This document shows, piece by piece, positions 29,115 to 35,390 of a DNA stretch of 43,664 bases; positions within the stretch are counted from its first letter, which is position 1; every line of letters begins with the position of its first letter. The notes beneath the pieces are model-generated. The model had not been told where the DNA came from and ran no database searches. It saw only the letters and a list, made by a program, of their open reading frames with translations. The position numbers and the translations under genes are program-made. Source of the stretch: Pseudobutyrivibrio sp. ACV-2 (GTDB lineage: Bacteria; Bacillota; Clostridia; Lachnospirales; Lachnospiraceae); assembly GCF_900107545.1 (NCBI RefSeq), contig NZ_FNQZ01000020.1, positions 1-43,664 on the forward strand, given 5' to 3'.

Positions 29115-29178
29115 CGGGGCTGTTAAAAAATTCCCCTAATAAAAAGTAAGTAAATTTTTAAAAGCAATAAAGCTCCTA

Positions 29179-29280
29179 AGTGAGCCAATTACGTAGACAA
29201 GCCCAGGTACTACTTTTGGTGAGTATAGCGAAAGCGATACCAAAAGTAGTACCTGGGCTTGTCTGCGTAACTGGCGGACT
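29179..29280. repeat. Long hairpin element, copy 1 (IR-1)
   Basis: Arms 29179-29220 and 29239-29280 are almost perfectly complementary, with a central run of 22 perfect pairs and only three unpaired positions further out. The loop contains a GAAA tetraloop on a short G-C stem. The outer end shows AAGT-GA-GC opposite GC-GG-ACTA, and the right arm carries TCTGCGTAAC. Copy 2 shares these motifs but has a different stem sequence. There is no T tract after the stem on either strand, so it is not a standard terminator. It lies between the convergent alr and GGDEF genes. Confidence 0.85.
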
Positions 29281-29296
29281 AAAGATTAAAGTCCAC

Positions 29297-30853
29297 CTAT
29301 TCCTTCCCATCCTTCATTTCTTTTTTATTCTTATACATCAGGTCGTCAGCTCTACGAAGCACCACTTCCACTCCGCTGTCTGTTTCTGGATCAAAAATTG
29401 CCCATCCAATAGCTGCTGACACCCTTTCCCAAGGTTCCAAAGAACTATCAGAAGTGGATTGTTTCACACATTCCTTGAATTCATATACCTTTTGTGGGCA
29501 CTGCTTGTAATCTTCATTTTGAAGAATAACCACAAACTCATCGCCCCCAATTCTAAAAACAGGAGAGTGTGAAAATACACTACAAACTGTTTCACATATC
29601 TTCATGATTGCCAGATTGCCTTTATCATGTCCGTAATGGTCGTTGATATATTTAAGGCAATTCAAATCAACCATAACGATACCAAACTCCTTGTAGTTTT
29701 CGCTGTGGATTTTGTATTCAATACTTGCCTCAGTTGCATCATAGGCGGTTTTGTTTCTCACCCCGGTAAGAGCATCTTTGTGAGCAAGCTCATTGGCCTT
29801 TCTTATTTTTTCCTGAGCTTCTGTAAGAGCCTCATTTTTTTCTAACAGTGTGTTCATGTAATCGCCAATTTCGATTATCATTGTTGCCACTTGTTGTGCT
29901 AAATCTGAAATCTCATCCGATCCCTGTATATCATGTGTGATAGTGACAGCCAAAGAAGAATCCTTGTGGTCAGTGAAGGATTGGATATCGCGTTTCAGCT
30001 GAACAAGTCTTGATATATATTTCTTTTGTAGCATAAGACTTAATATTGCAGCAAAAACGACTGACAATAAAGCCATAATAATAATCACATTTACAGTATT
30101 GTTAAGTATTGTAGTATTGACCTTTTTGACTTCCACATCCGCACAAACCAGGCCCATTTTTTGTCCATTTACCCATAGTGGATAATAGTTTGCGTAGGTG
30201 TGTCCGTATTCGTTATTAAAGATATCGTAACCGTCCAGTTCTCGACCAGCTTGCCAAGTATCCCACATATGAGGGTATAGGTCCACTGGTTCTTCAATAT
30301 CTAAATTTAACTTCATGTAATCTTGATTGTCTATTGTTATAGTTTCCGGTATCGCATCCAGCACATAATACATATGATAAGGTTCGCCCGTAGGAGTGAT
30401 GTAATAAACATATGCTACACCAAAGTTATATTTTACCTGGGAATAAACATGAAGCCAATATTCATGCTTATATGTACCGTATAGAATTTGAAGATCTTCA
30501 GGCATATCAAGATAATCAACGTCTATTCCTAATGATTTTCCAGGATAGGTGCTATTGTATTTTTCATAGAAAGCAATCTTTGCTGGATGATAATTTCCAT
30601 CATAGGATAGAGGAATTCTGATTTTGTCGCCATAAGTAAGCAATATCTGTTGATAGGCTATAAATTCTTCACCATCGGCAGACATCATATTTCCCAAATA
30701 GGTAACAATGTTTTCAAGATTTTGTTCATTTTGAATTTTATAATTTCTGGATTGAGACAGATAACTACTAAGTCCTGTCATTATAATGATTGACAGAACG
30801 AGTATTAGAAAAAAAGAATAAAGTTGTTTGCTTAAACTTGTACGTGTTGTCAT
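29297..30853 (-). CDS. Membrane-anchored diguanylate cyclase (GGDEF)
   Basis: It is predicted to make cyclic-di-GMP from two GTP. An N-terminal membrane helix (~10-30) and a second one (~230-252) enclose an extracytoplasmic sensor of about 200 residues that looks Cache-like. A HAMP-type linker and coiled coil lead to the cyclase domain with the intact active site GGDEF at 436-440 and KDALTGVRNKTAYD at its start. There is no RxxD inhibitory site before GGDEF. The start codon lies in the loop of an 11-bp hairpin and no ribosome site is visible. It is downstream of the YgjV-like gene by 40 bases on the same strand. Confidence 0.9.
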   Translation of the reverse strand: MTTRTSLSKQLYSFFLILVLSIIIMTGLSSYLSQSRNYKIQNEQNLENIVTYLGNMMSADGEEFIAYQQILLTYGDKIRIPLSYDGNYHPAKIAFYEKYNSTYPGKSLGIDVDYLDMPEDLQILYGTYKHEYWLHVYSQVKYNFGVAYVYYITPTGEPYHMYYVLDAIPETITIDNQDYMKLNLDIEEPVDLYPHMWDTWQAGRELDGYDIFNNEYGHTYANYYPLWVNGQKMGLVCADVEVKKVNTTILNNTVNVIIIMALLSVVFAAILSLMLQKKYISRLVQLKRDIQSFTDHKDSSLAVTITHDIQGSDEISDLAQQVATMIIEIGDYMNTLLEKNEALTEAQEKIRKANELAHKDALTGVRNKTAYDATEASIEYKIHSENYKEFGIVMVDLNCLKYINDHYGHDKGNLAIMKICETVCSVFSHSPVFRIGGDEFVVILQNEDYKQCPQKVYEFKECVKQSTSDSSLEPWERVSAAIGWAIFDPETDSGVEVVLRRADDLMYKNKKEMKDGKE

Positions 30854-30865
30854 GGTACAAGTTTA
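30833..30865 (-). promoter_or_regulatory. Perfect inverted repeat enclosing the GGDEF start codon
   Basis: TAAACTTGTAC (30833-30843) and GTACAAGTTTA (30855-30865) are perfectly complementary 11-base arms with an 11-base loop that contains the ATG (30851-30853). In the mRNA the start codon would be presented in the loop of a strong hairpin. The repeat could also be a protein-binding operator. Confidence 0.7.
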
Positions 30866-30893
30866 GCATTTAAATATGTATTTTTAGTTAAAA

Positions 30894-31448
30894 TTAGAAA
30901 GGTAATGGATTATTTTTATCTTTGATTATGCGATATACACCAATTAAGCTAGTCATTAGTGAAAAGCAGTCAAATGCGAAAACTGTCCAGTTGCTTAAGA
31001 TGAAATCGTAGGTTCCAAAGCATAGGATACTACCGATGCATCCAAGCTTAATGATAAGGTCACTCTTTGAACTAAGGGTTAGGGTAATAAGTGTGGCCGC
31101 TAAAAATGGAAGCCAGTCCATAATTCCATGGGTGCCAGCATTCATAGGAAGCCATTTGAACCATACGTTATAGAGTGAAATATAAGTGATAGTGCCTTGT
31201 AAAAGAATAAAGAACACTTTGAGTGGAGTGTTAAGATTCCATTTAAGGCAAATAATATTTCTGATAAGACTAATCATATTTCCTACAACTGCAGAGATTC
31301 CACCAATGCAAGCGTAAGAAATGGAGAATAATATGAATTGAGCATTTTGAGCAATGAGTACGTTGCGTTTTCTTTTAATATATCCGATTGCAACCATCAA
31401 TATGCAGGCTAATATAGCAAATATTTGACTTACTAAAAATAAATTCAT
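30894..31448 (-). CDS. YgjV family inner-membrane protein
   Basis: A 184-aa protein with about five or six hydrophobic helices resembles the YgjV family (QNAQFILFSISYACIGG, GNMISLIRNII). The function of the family is unknown. An AAAGAGG ribosome site precedes the start. It is transcribed away from the leuD/leuC cluster and toward the GGDEF gene, which it may be co-transcribed with. Confidence 0.78.
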   Translation of the reverse strand: MNLFLVSQIFAILACILMVAIGYIKRKRNVLIAQNAQFILFSISYACIGGISAVVGNMISLIRNIICLKWNLNTPLKVFFILLQGTITYISLYNVWFKWLPMNAGTHGIMDWLPFLAATLITLTLSSKSDLIIKLGCIGSILCFGTYDFILSNWTVFAFDCFSLMTSLIGVYRIIKDKNNPLPF

Positions 31449-31579
31449 AATTTTATAACCTCTTTATATGTTAAAAGTGTAGCCTTTTACTAAGGAAATG
31501 GAAGGCTTATAATTGTTTCAGAGTTTAATGATAATCCATAGTTGTGTTTATTTAAAGTTTTAATTGAAAAACAGATAAT

Positions 31580-31607
31580 TTAACTCTTTAAATCGTTAAA
31601 GAATTAA
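31580..31607. promoter_or_regulatory. Palindrome (possible operator) upstream of the dehydratase cluster
   Basis: Twelve-base arms (31580-31591 and 31596-31607) are complementary apart from one position, with a 4-base ATCG centre. A possible -10 TAAAAT at 31610-31615 follows at once and a weak -35 (TTTAAA, 31587-31592) would lie inside the palindrome. A repressor bound here could block the promoter. The first dehydratase gene starts 38 bases downstream. Confidence 0.5.
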
Positions 31608-31645
31608 TGTAAAATAGACAGAAAATAAATGGAGGATATAACATT

Positions 31646-32113
31646 ATGGGTAAAGTTTTTCGTTTTCATAAAGATGTAGATACCGATCAAATTATCGCAT
31701 CACAATATCTGCTTTTTCCCACAATCGATGAGATGAAGGAGCACACCTTTGAGTCTCTAAATTCGGATTTTGCATCGCAGGTAAAGCCTGGTGATTTTGT
31801 AGTAGCTGATGAAAATTTTGGTTGTGGCTCATCAAGAGAGCAAGCACCTAGTGTACTAAAGGCTTTGGGAGTGAAGGCAGTTATTGCGAAATCTTTTGCC
31901 CGTATTTTTTATAGAAACTCAATCAATATTGGCATGCCTGTAATTGTCAGCAAAGAGCTATATGACGTGGTAAAGGATGGCGACGAAATGGATTTAGATC
32001 TTCAAGCCGGCAAAATCACAATAGGCGACAAAGAATACTCTTGCACAAAGCTCCCAGCCAAAATGCAGGAAATTCTGGATCAAGGTGGCCTAATCGCGTC
32101 GTTGAATAACTAA
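31646..32113 (+). CDS. Isopropylmalate dehydratase family small subunit (pair 1)
   Basis: This is the swivel-domain subunit of a two-part aconitase-family dehydratase (LeuD, HacB or DmdB type). Motifs are KDVDTDQIIASQYL at the N-terminus, NFGCGSSREQAP and KSFARIFYRN. The specificity loop after YL is LF and lacks the arginine typical of homoaconitase, which suggests a less polar substrate such as isopropylmalate, citramalate or dimethylmalate. The length of 155 aa fits the short archaeal/clostridial type. There is a GGAGG site. The last ~30 codons are rich in third-position C. Hairpin copy 2 and the large subunit follow. Confidence 0.88.
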   Translation: MGKVFRFHKDVDTDQIIASQYLLFPTIDEMKEHTFESLNSDFASQVKPGDFVVADENFGCGSSREQAPSVLKALGVKAVIAKSFARIFYRNSINIGMPVIVSKELYDVVKDGDEMDLDLQAGKITIGDKEYSCTKLPAKMQEILDQGGLIASLNN

Positions 32114-32164
32114 TGGCGTCTACCCCATTCATTTACTACGCAGAAAGAAAGCTTACCAACTTTA

Positions 32165-32258
32165 AGTGAGCTGGTAGGCTACAAATTTTAGATGTCTAAA
32201 GGGTCGCATTCTAAGCTGAGCGTAGACATCTAAAGTTTGTAGCCGTAACCAGCGGACT
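32165..32258. repeat. Long hairpin element, copy 2 (IR-2)
   Basis: The stem joins 32165-32199 to 32222-32258. It shares with copy 1 the outer AAGT-GA-GC / GC-GG-ACTA with the same 2x2 mismatch, and the right-arm CGTAAC. The rest of the stem is different in sequence but self-complementary (GCTGGT/ACCAGC, GGCTACAAA/TTTGTAGCC, TTTAGATGTCT pairing). A single A on the left faces GTA on the right. It fills the gap between the small and large subunit genes and ends about 20 bases before the ribosome site of the latter. Confidence 0.8.
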
Positions 32259-32294
32259 ATAGGTAATCGCACAACCAAAAAGGAGACTAATAAC

Positions 32295-33542
32295 ATGGGA
32301 ATGACAATAGCTGAGAAAATTATTGCAGCTGCCGCAGGAAAAGAAACCTGCAAAGCCGGTGATATAGAAACAGTTACACTGGATAAATTAATGAGTAATG
32401 ATGGCACCACTCATCTTACCATAGATATGTACAACAATCTTAAGAATCCGCACATAGCAGACCCTGAAAAACTGGTATGGATTGTGGACCACAATATCCC
32501 TTCTGACAGTCCAAAGACTGCAGCCAGCCATAAAAAGATGCGTGATTTCGCCAGAGAGCATGGCATCACATTTTATGAGGGCGAAGGTGTTTGCCATCAG
32601 ATAATGATGGAAAATCAAGTTCGTCCAGGCGAGTTAATATTTGGAGCGGACTCACATACCTGTGCATATGGAGCTCTTGGCGCTTTTGGTACTGGCGTGG
32701 GATGTACTGATTATTTATATGCTATGGTTACTGGCACATCATGGCTTTTGGTACCAGAAACTATCCGTTTTAATCTTCACGGCAATCTTAAAAAGGGCGT
32801 ATATGCTAGAGATTTGATTCTGACTATCATCGGAAAGATTTCAGCAAATGGAGCCAACTATAAGGCTATGGAATTCGCTGGAGATGGACTTAAAAATCTT
32901 TCTATTGCAGATAGAATTTCAATTTGTAATCTTTGTGTAGAGGCTGGCGCTAAAACAGCACTTATGGAGGTGGACGGTGTTGCACTTTCTTATCTAGAGG
33001 AGCATGGCCGTATACCAAAGGCTATTTATAAGTCAGATGATGATGCAGTATTTTCAGAAGTATTTGACATTAATTTATCTGAGATTGAGCCAATAGTGGC
33101 AAAGCCTCATTTCGTAGATAACGTAGTACCCGTCAGTGAATGTGAGGGAGTAAAGATTGACGAGGCCTTCCTTGGCAGCTGTAACAATGGACGAATCGAG
33201 GATTTACGTGTGGGAGCTGAAGTGATAAAGGGCAAGCATGTTGCAGATAAGGTACGATTCTTGGTAGTTCCAGCAAGCCGAGCTGTTTACAAGCAGGCTC
33301 TTAAAGAGGGACTTTTAGATATTTTCATGGAAGCAGGAGCAATGGTAATGAATCCTAACTGCTCTGTATGCTGGGGCGCTTGCCAGGGCGTAATAGGAGA
33401 AGGCGAAACCCTAATCTCCACCGGCACCCGCAACTTCAAAGGAAGAGCGGGCCACAAGGATTCCTTCGTATACCTAGCATCAGCGGCCACCGTCACCGCG
33501 TCTGCGATAAAAGGATATATTACTAGCACTGATAACCTATAG
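32295..33542 (+). CDS. Isopropylmalate dehydratase family large subunit (pair 1)
   Basis: This is the [4Fe-4S] subunit of the aconitase family. The cluster cysteines are seen in GSCNNGRIEDL and in CSVCWGACQG. GADSHTCAYGALGAFGTGVG is the substrate/cluster region. The length of 415 aa is typical of the LeuC/HacA clade. GSCNNGR replaces the more usual GSCTNGR. The start has AAGGAG. The last ~55 codons switch to third-position C and to rare-looking CTA and GCG codons. Hairpin copy 3 begins three bases after the stop. It forms a complex with the preceding small subunit. Confidence 0.88.
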   Translation: MGMTIAEKIIAAAAGKETCKAGDIETVTLDKLMSNDGTTHLTIDMYNNLKNPHIADPEKLVWIVDHNIPSDSPKTAASHKKMRDFAREHGITFYEGEGVCHQIMMENQVRPGELIFGADSHTCAYGALGAFGTGVGCTDYLYAMVTGTSWLLVPETIRFNLHGNLKKGVYARDLILTIIGKISANGANYKAMEFAGDGLKNLSIADRISICNLCVEAGAKTALMEVDGVALSYLEEHGRIPKAIYKSDDDAVFSEVFDINLSEIEPIVAKPHFVDNVVPVSECEGVKIDEAFLGSCNNGRIEDLRVGAEVIKGKHVADKVRFLVVPASRAVYKQALKEGLLDIFMEAGAMVMNPNCSVCWGACQGVIGEGETLISTGTRNFKGRAGHKDSFVYLASAATVTASAIKGYITSTDNL

Positions 33543-33544
33543 AA

Positions 33545-33630
33545 CAAAATCTAGCAGACAATGATTAGCATTCTGTAAGAGACGTGTTAGTCGATGGAAG
33601 AATGCTAATTATTGTCTGCGTAAGATTTTG
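33545..33630. repeat. Long hairpin element, copy 3 (IR-3)
   Basis: The stem joins 33545-33574 with 33599-33630. Left CAAAATCT pairs with AGATTTTG. A single A on the left faces GTA on the right, exactly as in copy 2. Then GCAGACAAT pairs with ATTGTCTGC and ATTAGCATTCT with its complement. The right arm shares GTCTGCGTAA with copy 1. It lacks the outer AAGTGAGC/GCGGACTA ends of copies 1 and 2. It begins three bases after the pair-1 large-subunit stop and ends about 10 bases before the next ribosome site. Confidence 0.78.
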
Positions 33631-33655
33631 CACACAACGAAAAGGGATAAACAAA

Positions 33656-34135
33656 ATGAGTAGAATTTGGAAATTAGGCAACGACATAGACACTGATATC
33701 ATTCTGCCTACAGAATACCTTGCATTTGAAACAGTAACGGAGATGAAGCCATATGCTTTTTCTCCACTGCGTCCAGAACTGGCATCTTCGATTCAGCCGG
33801 GAGATATGATTGTGGCAGGCAATAACTTCGGCTGCGGCTCATCAAGAGAGCAGGCGCCAGAAGTTGTAAAAGCACTTGGGATTTCATGCATTGTTGCAAA
33901 ATCCTTTGCGCGAATCTTTTTCAGAAACGCTATCAATAATGGTTTGCTTCTCATCGAACAGCCGGATTTGTATGATGAGGTTAATGAGGGGGAAGAGGCA
34001 GAAGTTATCCCAGGCAAAGAGATAATTGTAAATGGTAAATCCTATCCTATAGCAAGTCTCCCTGATAATCTTACAGAGATTCTAGAGGCTGGCGGACTTG
34101 TAAAGGCAATGAGAAAACGAAACGGATTAGATTAA
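33656..34135 (+). CDS. Isopropylmalate dehydratase family small subunit (pair 2)
   Basis: This is a second small subunit, clearly related to pair 1 (NFGCGSSREQAP, AKSFARIFFRNAINNG). The loop after YL reads AF instead of LF, which may mark a different substrate. The start is ATG 33656, preceded by AAAGGGA. The longer frame from GTG 33584 would run through hairpin copy 3 and is unlikely. The length is 159 aa. Unlike the three genes followed by hairpins, its 3' end keeps the usual A/T-ending codons, and the large subunit gene follows only 13 bases later. Confidence 0.88.
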   Translation: MSRIWKLGNDIDTDIILPTEYLAFETVTEMKPYAFSPLRPELASSIQPGDMIVAGNNFGCGSSREQAPEVVKALGISCIVAKSFARIFFRNAINNGLLLIEQPDLYDEVNEGEEAEVIPGKEIIVNGKSYPIASLPDNLTEILEAGGLVKAMRKRNGLD

Positions 34136-34148
34136 TTTGGAGAATGTA

Positions 34149-35390
34149 ATGGGACATACTTTAGTTGAAAAAATAATTGGAAATAAAGTTGGACATGAGG
34201 TGAAGCCAGGTGATATTGTCACTGTTGATGTAGATTGGTGCATGATTGACGATATCATGGTTCCATTTGCTGTCCAGAAATTTGAGGAGATGGGCTTTAA
34301 AGAAGTGGCAAAGCCAGATAGTGTAGTGCTGATTTATGATCATTTCCTTCCGGCAACTCAGGTAGATGATAGCAGACATTTCAGAGCAGGTGATGAGTTT
34401 GCAGAAAAATATGGCATCACTCGTGTTCATAGAACTGATGGAATCTGTCATCAGCTTATGACTGAAGCAGGATATGTAAAGCCAGGAGATATTTCTTTTG
34501 GTACAGATAGTCATACAGTAACTTATGGTTGCGTGGGTGCATTTGCTACAGGTATCGGATATACGGAGATGGCAGGAATTTTAGGCACAGGCCAGCTTTG
34601 GATAAAGGTACCTGAGACCATCAGAATTGAAATAGATGGAACCTTGCCAGGTAACGTTACCTCAAAGGATATCATTCTTAAAATCATTGGTGATTTAACT
34701 GCAGCCGGTGCCACATATCAGGCCATCGAATTTGCAGGAAGCACAGTGGATGCCATGAGTGTTGCAAGCCGTATGACCATGTCCAATATGTCTGTGGAGG
34801 CAGGGGCTAAATGTGGTCTTTTTGCACCTGATGAAAAGACCTGTGATTATTGTAAGATTCCTTATGACGATAGTATCAAGGCTTTGACACCAGATGGTGA
34901 TGCAAGCTATTCAAAGATTTTGAGATACAGAGCAGAGGATTTCGTGCCAGTTTGTGCTTGCCCTTCACTTGTAGATAATATCAAGCCTGTGTCCGATTTA
35001 AAGGGCACAAAGGTAAATCAGGTGTTCCTTGGTTCTTGTACAAATGGAAGATTAGAAGACTTAAGAGCGGCTGCCACTATTTTAAAAGGTAAGCATGTTG
35101 CTCCTTACGTAAATATGATTGTAACACCAGCAAGCCGAAAGATTTATCGTGAGGCGCTTGCTGATGGTACACTTGAAATTCTGTCAGATGCCGGTGCTAT
35201 CATCACTACACCAGGCTGTGGACTTTGCTGTGGTAGAGGTGGCGGAATCCTTACAGATGACGAGGTGGTAGTTGCTACCAACAATCGTAACTTCCTTGGA
35301 AGAATGGGAACCAGCAAGGTTAAGATATTCCTTGCCAGTCCAGTAACCGCTGCAGCCACAGCTATAGCAGGAGAAATTGTAGAAGGCTAG
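34149..35390 (+). CDS. Isopropylmalate dehydratase family large subunit (pair 2)
   Basis: This is the second [4Fe-4S] large subunit. The cysteine motifs are GSCTNGRLEDL and CGLCCGRGGG, with an additional cysteine next to a ligand, and GTDSHTVTYGCVGAFATGIG. The sequence NRNFLGRMGTSKVKIFLASP resembles the LeuC/DmdA group (3-isopropylmalate or 2,3-dimethylmalate dehydratase). The start is placed at ATG 34149 with TTGGAGA upstream (413 aa); the TTG at 34137 is too close to the ribosome site. The stop overlaps the convergent CobW-like gene by four bases. No leuA or leuB is nearby. Confidence 0.88.
   Translation: MGHTLVEKIIGNKVGHEVKPGDIVTVDVDWCMIDDIMVPFAVQKFEEMGFKEVAKPDSVVLIYDHFLPATQVDDSRHFRAGDEFAEKYGITRVHRTDGICHQLMTEAGYVKPGDISFGTDSHTVTYGCVGAFATGIGYTEMAGILGTGQLWIKVPETIRIEIDGTLPGNVTSKDIILKIIGDLTAAGATYQAIEFAGSTVDAMSVASRMTMSNMSVEAGAKCGLFAPDEKTCDYCKIPYDDSIKALTPDGDASYSKILRYRAEDFVPVCACPSLVDNIKPVSDLKGTKVNQVFLGSCTNGRLEDLRAAATILKGKHVAPYVNMIVTPASRKIYREALADGTLEILSDAGAIITTPGCGLCCGRGGGILTDDEVVVATNNRNFLGRMGTSKVKIFLASPVTAAATAIAGEIVEG

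Follow-up and report, generated by a model that had tools for sequence, protein, structure and literature searches.

A dispersed family of intergenic hairpins in Pseudobutyrivibrio whose shape is kept while the stem sequences vary

The 43,664-nucleotide stretch of the Pseudobutyrivibrio sp. ACV-2 genome analyzed here (contig NZ_FNQZ01000020.1; hereafter the window) contains three long hairpins, which we call copies 1, 2 and 3, and which are members of a dispersed family of interspersed intergenic repeats of about 90-110 nucleotides (nt) in Pseudobutyrivibrio, a genus of gut bacteria. Each member is a long hairpin of one particular strand with fixed non-canonical marks, placed in a gap between genes and with its pairing held by selection, and the family varies in presence and absence at shared sites, shows nesting of copies, and is more alike within than between genomes. 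Judging from the sequences, we consider it probable that the hairpins form a non-autonomous, REPIN-like miniature repeat family whose transcribed hairpin acts in cis in the mRNA.

For quantification of the family we used two covariance models, R1 built from 16 sequences of apical type B and R2 built from 11 sequences of apical type A (both types are described below), and searched 29 Pseudobutyrivibrio genomes, including the own genome G000, counting matches at an expectation value (E) of 0.01. Matches to R1 were found in 28 of the 29 genomes and in 21/21 of the good ones, and matches to R2 in all 29. The own genome gave 65 R1 matches, representing 64 places (one was met on both strands), while 25 congeners gave between 18 and 124 and genome G028, searched alone, gave 130; all copy numbers are lower bounds, since the best 13-150 candidates were scored per genome. 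Three genomes with a completeness of 82-86% (G015, G017 and G018) are poor in copies, having 0, 1 and 7 matches to R1 and 1, 1 and 10 matches to R2, respectively. The preliminary description, which was made from the window alone, had offered a structured RNA family as one option and a search for further intergenic members in related genomes as its test, and such members are indeed abundant. The family can also be seen by simple word searches. With one mismatch allowed, the right-arm word GCGTAACNRGCGG was found at 44 places in the own genome compared to 2 for the reversed word, and 25 of the 30 places that were supplied with a locus form a hairpin in which 14 or more of the first 20 positions above the loop are Watson-Crick matches. 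The apical 18-mer of copy 1 was found in 15 named loci, 10 of them from Pseudobutyrivibrio, and R2 matched in those 10 and in 0/5 of the others.

Outside the genus no member was detected in the samples searched. In a family sample of 299 genomes representing 298 genera, searched with strict filters and 13 candidates scored for each genome, the only matches came from its two Pseudobutyrivibrio genomes and R1 matched 0/297 of the genomes from other genera; a sample of 40 genomes, searched with laxer filters and 99 candidates scored for each, gave matches in the own genome only and in 0/39 of the others. When the window was compared with Rfam at the gathering score, only large-subunit ribosomal RNA, two tRNAs and an FMN riboswitch were returned and the hairpins stayed unmatched, and a search of four hairpin loci at E values up to 1 gave six matches, all under the gathering score and none of them relevant. 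We found no paper on such a family in the open-access literature, a restriction that makes this weak evidence of absence, and neither “Butyrivibrio” nor “Lachnospir” occurs in the main text of PMC3733652, PMC2267715 or PMC12306157.

The anatomy of the element is best described from the base and inwards. Outermost is a stem, often TAGATGAGC/GCGGACTA with a mismatch of the G-A/G-G type and otherwise of a different but still paired sequence, followed by a T-A pair and then a single A facing GTA (GUA in the RNA). Above this asymmetric internal loop there is a G-C pair and 3-4 variable pairs, among which A-A and T-T mismatches are common, then CAAGC/GCTTG, then a variable stem, and finally an apical part that comes in a few types: type A has a GAAA tetraloop, type B combines a tandem GA with a short stem, and copy 3 and others have shorter forms. 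Among 83 copies from G028 the left T and A as well as TTG are present in 83, CAA in 73, GTA in 80 and GTAAC in 78. In a larger set, taken from loci other than those of the window (186 rows, reduced to 177 places and 173 unique copies), 165 of the 173 have the strict A/GTA form; in the remaining 8 the loop is mostly GTG, ATA, GGA or TTA, and one of them is a fragment. The distance from the A/GTA loop to the apical part is 21-23 aligned pairs in 141 of the 165 strict copies, a figure that leans towards type B since the sample is mostly of that type, type-A stems being longer. A three-dimensional reading of the internal and apical motifs is something that we infer.

It is clear from the alignments that the stem letters change in a coordinated manner. 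In an alignment of 85 rows from one genome (A5) 94.4% of the cells are paired, and double changes occur at 27 of the 32 pairs. The number of cells with double changes was 643, compared to 186.7 in shuffles and 38-67 in slid controls of the same 85 rows, although it should be kept in mind that the alignment was fitted to the structure, which favours covariation. Compensatory change, as claimed in the preliminary description, can moreover be followed in place at the site of copy 3, where 7 orthologues show double changes in 13 of 33 pairs; at many other sites in common between genomes, replacement of the hairpin seems a better description than slow change (see below). Complementarity alone could arise by template switching during replication, and copy 1 looks like the product of one such event.

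The mismatches in the stems show which strand is folded. Among the 165 strict hairpins we counted 128 G-T and 9 A-C mismatches (p 4e-28), using alignments that score Watson-Crick matches only; the p value is nominal because related copies are not independent. The same bias, 28 to 1, was seen in the 25 hairpins that were found by the word search without any covariance model. Since G-T far exceeds A-C, the strand with GTAA (GUAA in the RNA) is the one that folds under selection, either as RNA or as single-stranded DNA, in line with the selection on the folded strand that had been proposed. Divided by gene context, the G-T to A-C counts are 88 to 2 for copies in sense between codirectional genes (++), 17 to 2 at convergent gene ends (+-), 16 to 4 for antisense copies (--) and 4 to 0 at divergent genes (-+). 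A-C is thus rarer in ++ than in -- copies (Fisher p 0.0097), while the -- copies are still skewed (p 0.012). The lower ratio of the -- copies fits selection in sense transcripts, and their persistent skew fits either arrival with sense-strand G-U pairs already present or selection on the element itself.

The position of the copies relative to genes was analyzed in G028. Its 130 matches are represented there by 80 stretches chosen by score, so that the context and skew data cover the highest-scoring loci, most of them of type B. From the 85 rows an opposite-strand double and a weak match were removed, leaving 83 copies for the context and mismatch counts, whereas all 85 were kept for the covariation analysis; gene contexts came from a simple caller of longest open reading frames (ORFs). 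The 83 copies comprise 55 ++, 14 +-, 13 -- and 1 -+, so that 69 follow a gene in their own sense, and 81 are not spanned by any ORF of at least 50 codons (2 are). A mixed set of 89 copies was obtained from 103 R1 matches by removing 14, namely places met on both strands, places contained in two loci, and three matches that were weak, overlapping or partial. In this set a word resembling a ribosome binding site followed by a start codon lies within about 80 nt downstream of 57 copies, compared to 8 on the other side and strand, and the right-hand gene is in the sense of the hairpin in 62 cases, against it in 24 and not found in 3. Such a placement argues against a function as promoter and agrees with one between cistrons or at the 3' end. 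A T tract, as defined by a simple pattern, follows 12 of the 83 G028 copies, a minority that from their sequence also look like terminators. Among the 13 antisense copies, an A tract, giving a T tract on the transcribed strand, was seen in 5. In three genomes one and the same gene gap (L096, L098 and L213) holds two copies in opposite orientation whose left ends overlap by about 10 nt, and the pair has been kept in the different species.

Because codirectional genes nearly all follow the local GC skew (66/68), codirectional sites cannot separate the direction of the gene from that of replication. The hairpins point along the skew at 54 of 66 codirectional skew-following genes, but only in 5 or 6 of 14 cases at convergent ends (p 0.00018 for 5/14), the number depending on three choices of skew borders, which were set by eye. 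Targeting of the replication strand as the cause of the orientation is therefore disfavoured. The skew estimate is rough, being read at hairpin loci only, where genes shape the skew, and the skew of the contig is oddly unequal, with about 0.7 Mb plus and 2.7 Mb minus.

Turning to the window, the three hairpins were located at their reported places and all the listed shared marks were found in the sequence. Copy 1 (positions 29174-29285, on the + strand like all features given here) is of apical type A and lies between the alanine racemase gene alr and a convergent GGDEF gene. Copy 2 (32160-32263) is of apical type B, lies between a LeuD-like and a LeuC-like gene and ends 5' of a ribosome binding site, and copy 3 (33537-33638) belongs to a subfamily with the outer stem CAAAATCT/AGATTTTG and lies between the LeuC-like and a second LeuD-like gene. 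Their calculated RNA fold energies are -75.7, -52.6 and -44.8 kcal/mol, corresponding to z values of -12.8, -7.6 and -8.9 against 200 dinucleotide shuffles each, none of which folded equally well. Among the 11 listed inverted repeats of the window (arms of at least 16 nt, spaced by up to 200 nt) these three are the only ones with arms above 20 nt and more than 85% complementary. Copies 1 and 2 have AAGT-GA-GC/GC-GG-ACTA in common, CGTAA is present in all three (in the right arm of copy 1 at 29266-29270), GTCTGCGTAA is found in copies 1 and 3, and the single A facing GTA is found in copy 2 (A at 32176, GTA at 32245-32247) and in copy 3 (A at 33553, GTA at 33620-33622). Copy 1 carries the apical motif GAGTATAGCGAAAGCGAT with the GAAA tetraloop at 29221-29238, and in its left arm TTACG (29189-29193) is exactly complementary to CGTAA and replaces the A/GTA loop kept by the other copies; these are extra letters relative to the other 10 rows of alignment A3, and they give the impression that the opposite arm was used to fill the asymmetric loop. 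The absence of a T tract 3' of any of the three stems, noted before, was borne out by the sequence.

The shared marks exceed chance, since copies 1 and 3 score 42.8 bits (E 4.1e-9) and 55.2 bits (E 1.9e-12) against R1, which was built without either of them; for copy 3 orthologues from 6 other genomes were aligned as well. Copy 2 scores 105 bits (E 9.1e-26) and belongs to the 16 training sequences of R1, just as copy 1, with 102.6 bits against R2, is within the 11 training sequences of that model. Copies 2 and 3 flank the LeuC-like gene in a leuD-leuC-leuD-leuC array, where two LeuD-LeuC-like pairs follow in succession (31646-35390); the two LeuC-like proteins are 41% identical, and two such matches are found in 26 of the 29 Pseudobutyrivibrio genomes. 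Another hairpin-like repeat (GCGCGAGGAAGAGG...GATGGCTTCCGGGAGC and variants), apparently unrelated to the family, was seen 3' of leuC in L173, L175, L176, L177 and L179; it fills the leuC-leuD gap in five congeners, and others carry a hairpin of the copy-3 type there. The FMN riboswitch mentioned above is located at 2456-2570 (114.9 bits).

Comparison of sites between genomes revealed turnover, with gain and loss of sites among the species. Both flanks matched in 60 pairs of loci, of which 7 lie within a single genome and some represent one place twice; 47 distinct pairs come from different genomes, and shared sites keep the same orientation. In 23 of the 47 pairs the likeness of the two hairpins does not exceed that of the median unrelated copy, in 14 it is above the 95th percentile, and in 8 it is at least 0.9. 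The pair L088/L089 has an identical core in flanks that are 81-83% alike, so that here the hairpin is conserved more than its flanks, while L093/L264 has unlike hairpins in spite of flanks that are 91/96% alike, and L118/L144 differs in apical type between the two species, A against B, with flanks 91/84% alike. The similarity of the inner parts is 0.666 within genomes and 0.606 between them.

Full copies were found nested in the apical part of another copy in G028 (L225, L227, L250, L270 and L279) and in G000 (L156). The search for the nested pattern gave 7 matches, from which L011, a type-A copy whose loop is enlarged, and L173, where a partial copy follows another copy, were excluded and to which L270 was added. 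In L003 (G000 contig C38, 1421-1640) two right halves trail a full type-A hairpin, both of them beginning at the apical motif, and at the leu site of G023 a full copy precedes the right half of the element that stands alone in G024; both arrangements look like loop invasion followed by loss of the old left arm, as far as we can infer. A leuC tree of 27 genomes, in which 10 of the 24 inner branches are weak, requires at least 8 and at least 6 changes of occupancy at the two leu sites, with site states labelled by hand. In a syntenic block of 87.5 kb shared by G003 and G002 (92.4% alike) one copy is common to both genomes and another is found in G002 alone.

The search for a gene that could move the element gave no candidate. 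The transposase domain Y1_Tnp (PF01797) occurs in only 10/29 genomes (8/21 good ones) and is absent in G003, G004, G012 and G022, each of which has 62-90 R1 matches, and the reverse transcriptase domain PF00078 occurs in 15/29 genomes and is absent from G003, G004, G012 and G021, with 62-107 R1 matches each. Neither presence tracks the copy number, and both were rejected as movers. A composite transposon was rejected as well: among 8 ORFs between neighbouring hairpins, the 7/7 that were scanned have ordinary metabolic or membrane-protein domains (two are orthologues). Spread by viruses was disfavoured, since the apical 18-mer has no exact match in viral contigs; six viral contigs hold the right-end word, and neither R1 nor R2 matches in them. 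Whatever moves the element may have died out, or movement may be due to a process of the host. With regard to the earlier suggestion of a mobile element of single-stranded DNA, the dispersal part is supported by the within-genome likeness, the site turnover and the nesting, while a transposon of the Y1 kind is not, its gene being present in so few of the genomes.

The family invites comparison with REPINs and the REP-RAYT system, which, in passages of PMC3116915, are high-copy extragenic hairpins spreading within genomes, where spacer length and hairpin-forming capacity matter and compensatory changes are common. The Pseudobutyrivibrio repeats are likewise high-copy, extragenic, palindromic and alike within genomes. 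They differ in having no unpaired GTAG/GGAG or CGTC foot (the GTAG of the left arm sits inside the stem with G, T and the last G paired and only the A unpaired), in that no resident RAYT tracks the family, and in that the strand-specific asymmetric loop and the G-T excess point to one folded strand whose orientation follows genes. The family works like a REPIN in part, and we do not class it as one. Escherichia coli REP/BIME sequences and other intercistronic mRNA hairpins are likewise located between a stop codon and the ribosome binding site that comes next, but in our family the stem letters vary freely while internal and apical motifs are conserved. For REP/BIME, mRNA stabilisation is named as a hypothesis in part of PMC3733652, and judging from the sequences such a role fits the positions found here. 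The families of bacterial stem-loop sequences described in sections of PMC2267715 are similarly dispersed and structured; clustering by sequence would have difficulty with the family described here, as its stems differ.

Several other explanations have to be weighed. The copies could be REPINs or MITEs at the DNA level, where it is the folded single strand that moves, by means of a transposase of the Y1 (RAYT-like) or another kind, and where effects on mRNA are only incidental. This is possible but rather unlikely: copy number, extragenic position, nesting and within-genome likeness resemble those of REPINs, and the G-T excess in antisense copies (16 to 4) is not predicted by host mRNA selection, but Y1_Tnp is missing from most genomes including the four copy-rich ones, the orientation at convergent ends ignores the skew, and the left-arm GTAG is not an unpaired terminal foot as in REPs. 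If, on the other hand, the hairpins were purely host cis-elements at fixed sites (terminators, RNase III sites or stabilisers) drifting fast under structural constraint and without mobility, it would be difficult to explain unlike hairpins in like flanks (L093/L264), the switch of apical type in L118/L144, the frequent flips of occupancy and the nested copies. We find that alternative improbable, even if the 47 same-orientation pairs at sites shared across species (8 of them at least 0.9 alike), the T tracts in 12/83 copies, the lower frequency of A-C in ++ than in -- copies and the compensatory change in place at the site of copy 3 would all agree with it, and stems of 21-23 bp in 141/165 copies would suit RNase III.

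We also doubt, to the same degree, that the family is a mobile element defined by RNA shape, in which the folded sense RNA is copied back into DNA with a preference for the loops of hairpins in transcribed gaps, so that old copies are invaded and replaced; recognition would then go through the A/GUA loop, CAAG/CUUG and the apical motif, and the trailing right halves in L003 and at the leu site of G023 would be scars of replacement. A mutational artefact, where template switching during replication perfects inverted repeats and complementarity and covariation need no selection, is very improbable. Template switching is reported in part of PMC8794818 to create and maintain RNA hairpins, and it can keep arms complementary, the filled-in A/GTA loop of copy 1 being a likely example; it is, however, a process and not a family, it should treat both strands alike and so leaves the ratio of 128 G-T to 9 A-C unexplained by itself, and it should erase the asymmetric A/GUA loop that is strictly kept in 165/173 copies. 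Finally, an integron-like attC or other recombinase site read as a folded strand would also have variable stems, a conserved base and extrahelical bases and lie between genes. The R-box consensus of attC is GTTRRRY, which the conserved basal words do not yield, and the genes between neighbouring copies are ordinary-looking chromosomal ones in 7/7 cases scanned (two orthologues), making this explanation scarcely credible.

A number of observations weigh against the explanation that we prefer, a REPIN-like family with a hairpin acting in the mRNA. Stem lengths and positions suit several mRNA roles equally, and selection in host transcripts is not the whole explanation, since antisense copies are still richer in G-T than in A-C. 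In G028 a copy is often 0.9-0.98 alike to the best of its 82 paralogues, but this comparison is a best-of-many and biased toward turnover. In 40 paralogue pairs with inner parts above 0.9 the lower and outer stems differ (identity mostly 0.47-0.75), and whole-element copying alone therefore does not explain them; in the profile of such close paralogues (two of the 83 G028 copies were skipped) the flanks are near background, with positions -28, -17, +21 and +27 raised to 0.5-0.6, in part because nested copies share outer parts. The 90-bp element present only in G002 has no clear target-site duplication, and a deletion in G003 is equally likely. Furthermore, no gene for movement was found among Y1, reverse transcriptase and the ORFs between neighbouring copies.

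With a REPIN-like family acting in cis, the elements would be tolerated or retained for what the hairpin does once it is transcribed. It would most probably serve as a barrier or a site of processing, by which messages are kept apart or protected between cistrons and at 3' ends, and given its two-turn stem it may be a substrate for RNase III. The near-perfect pairing might partly be maintained by DNA template switching between the arms, with selection preserving the asymmetric A/GUA loop and the G-U pairs.

With dozens of copies in each of many related genomes, the family offers a large natural set where the shape is kept while the letters turn over. Two questions thereby become testable: does compensatory change proceed by point mutation or by template switching, and should the short repeats of bacteria be regarded as selfish DNA or as useful RNA? 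Repeat families that are defined by shape easily escape clustering by sequence, and similar ones may hide in other genomes.

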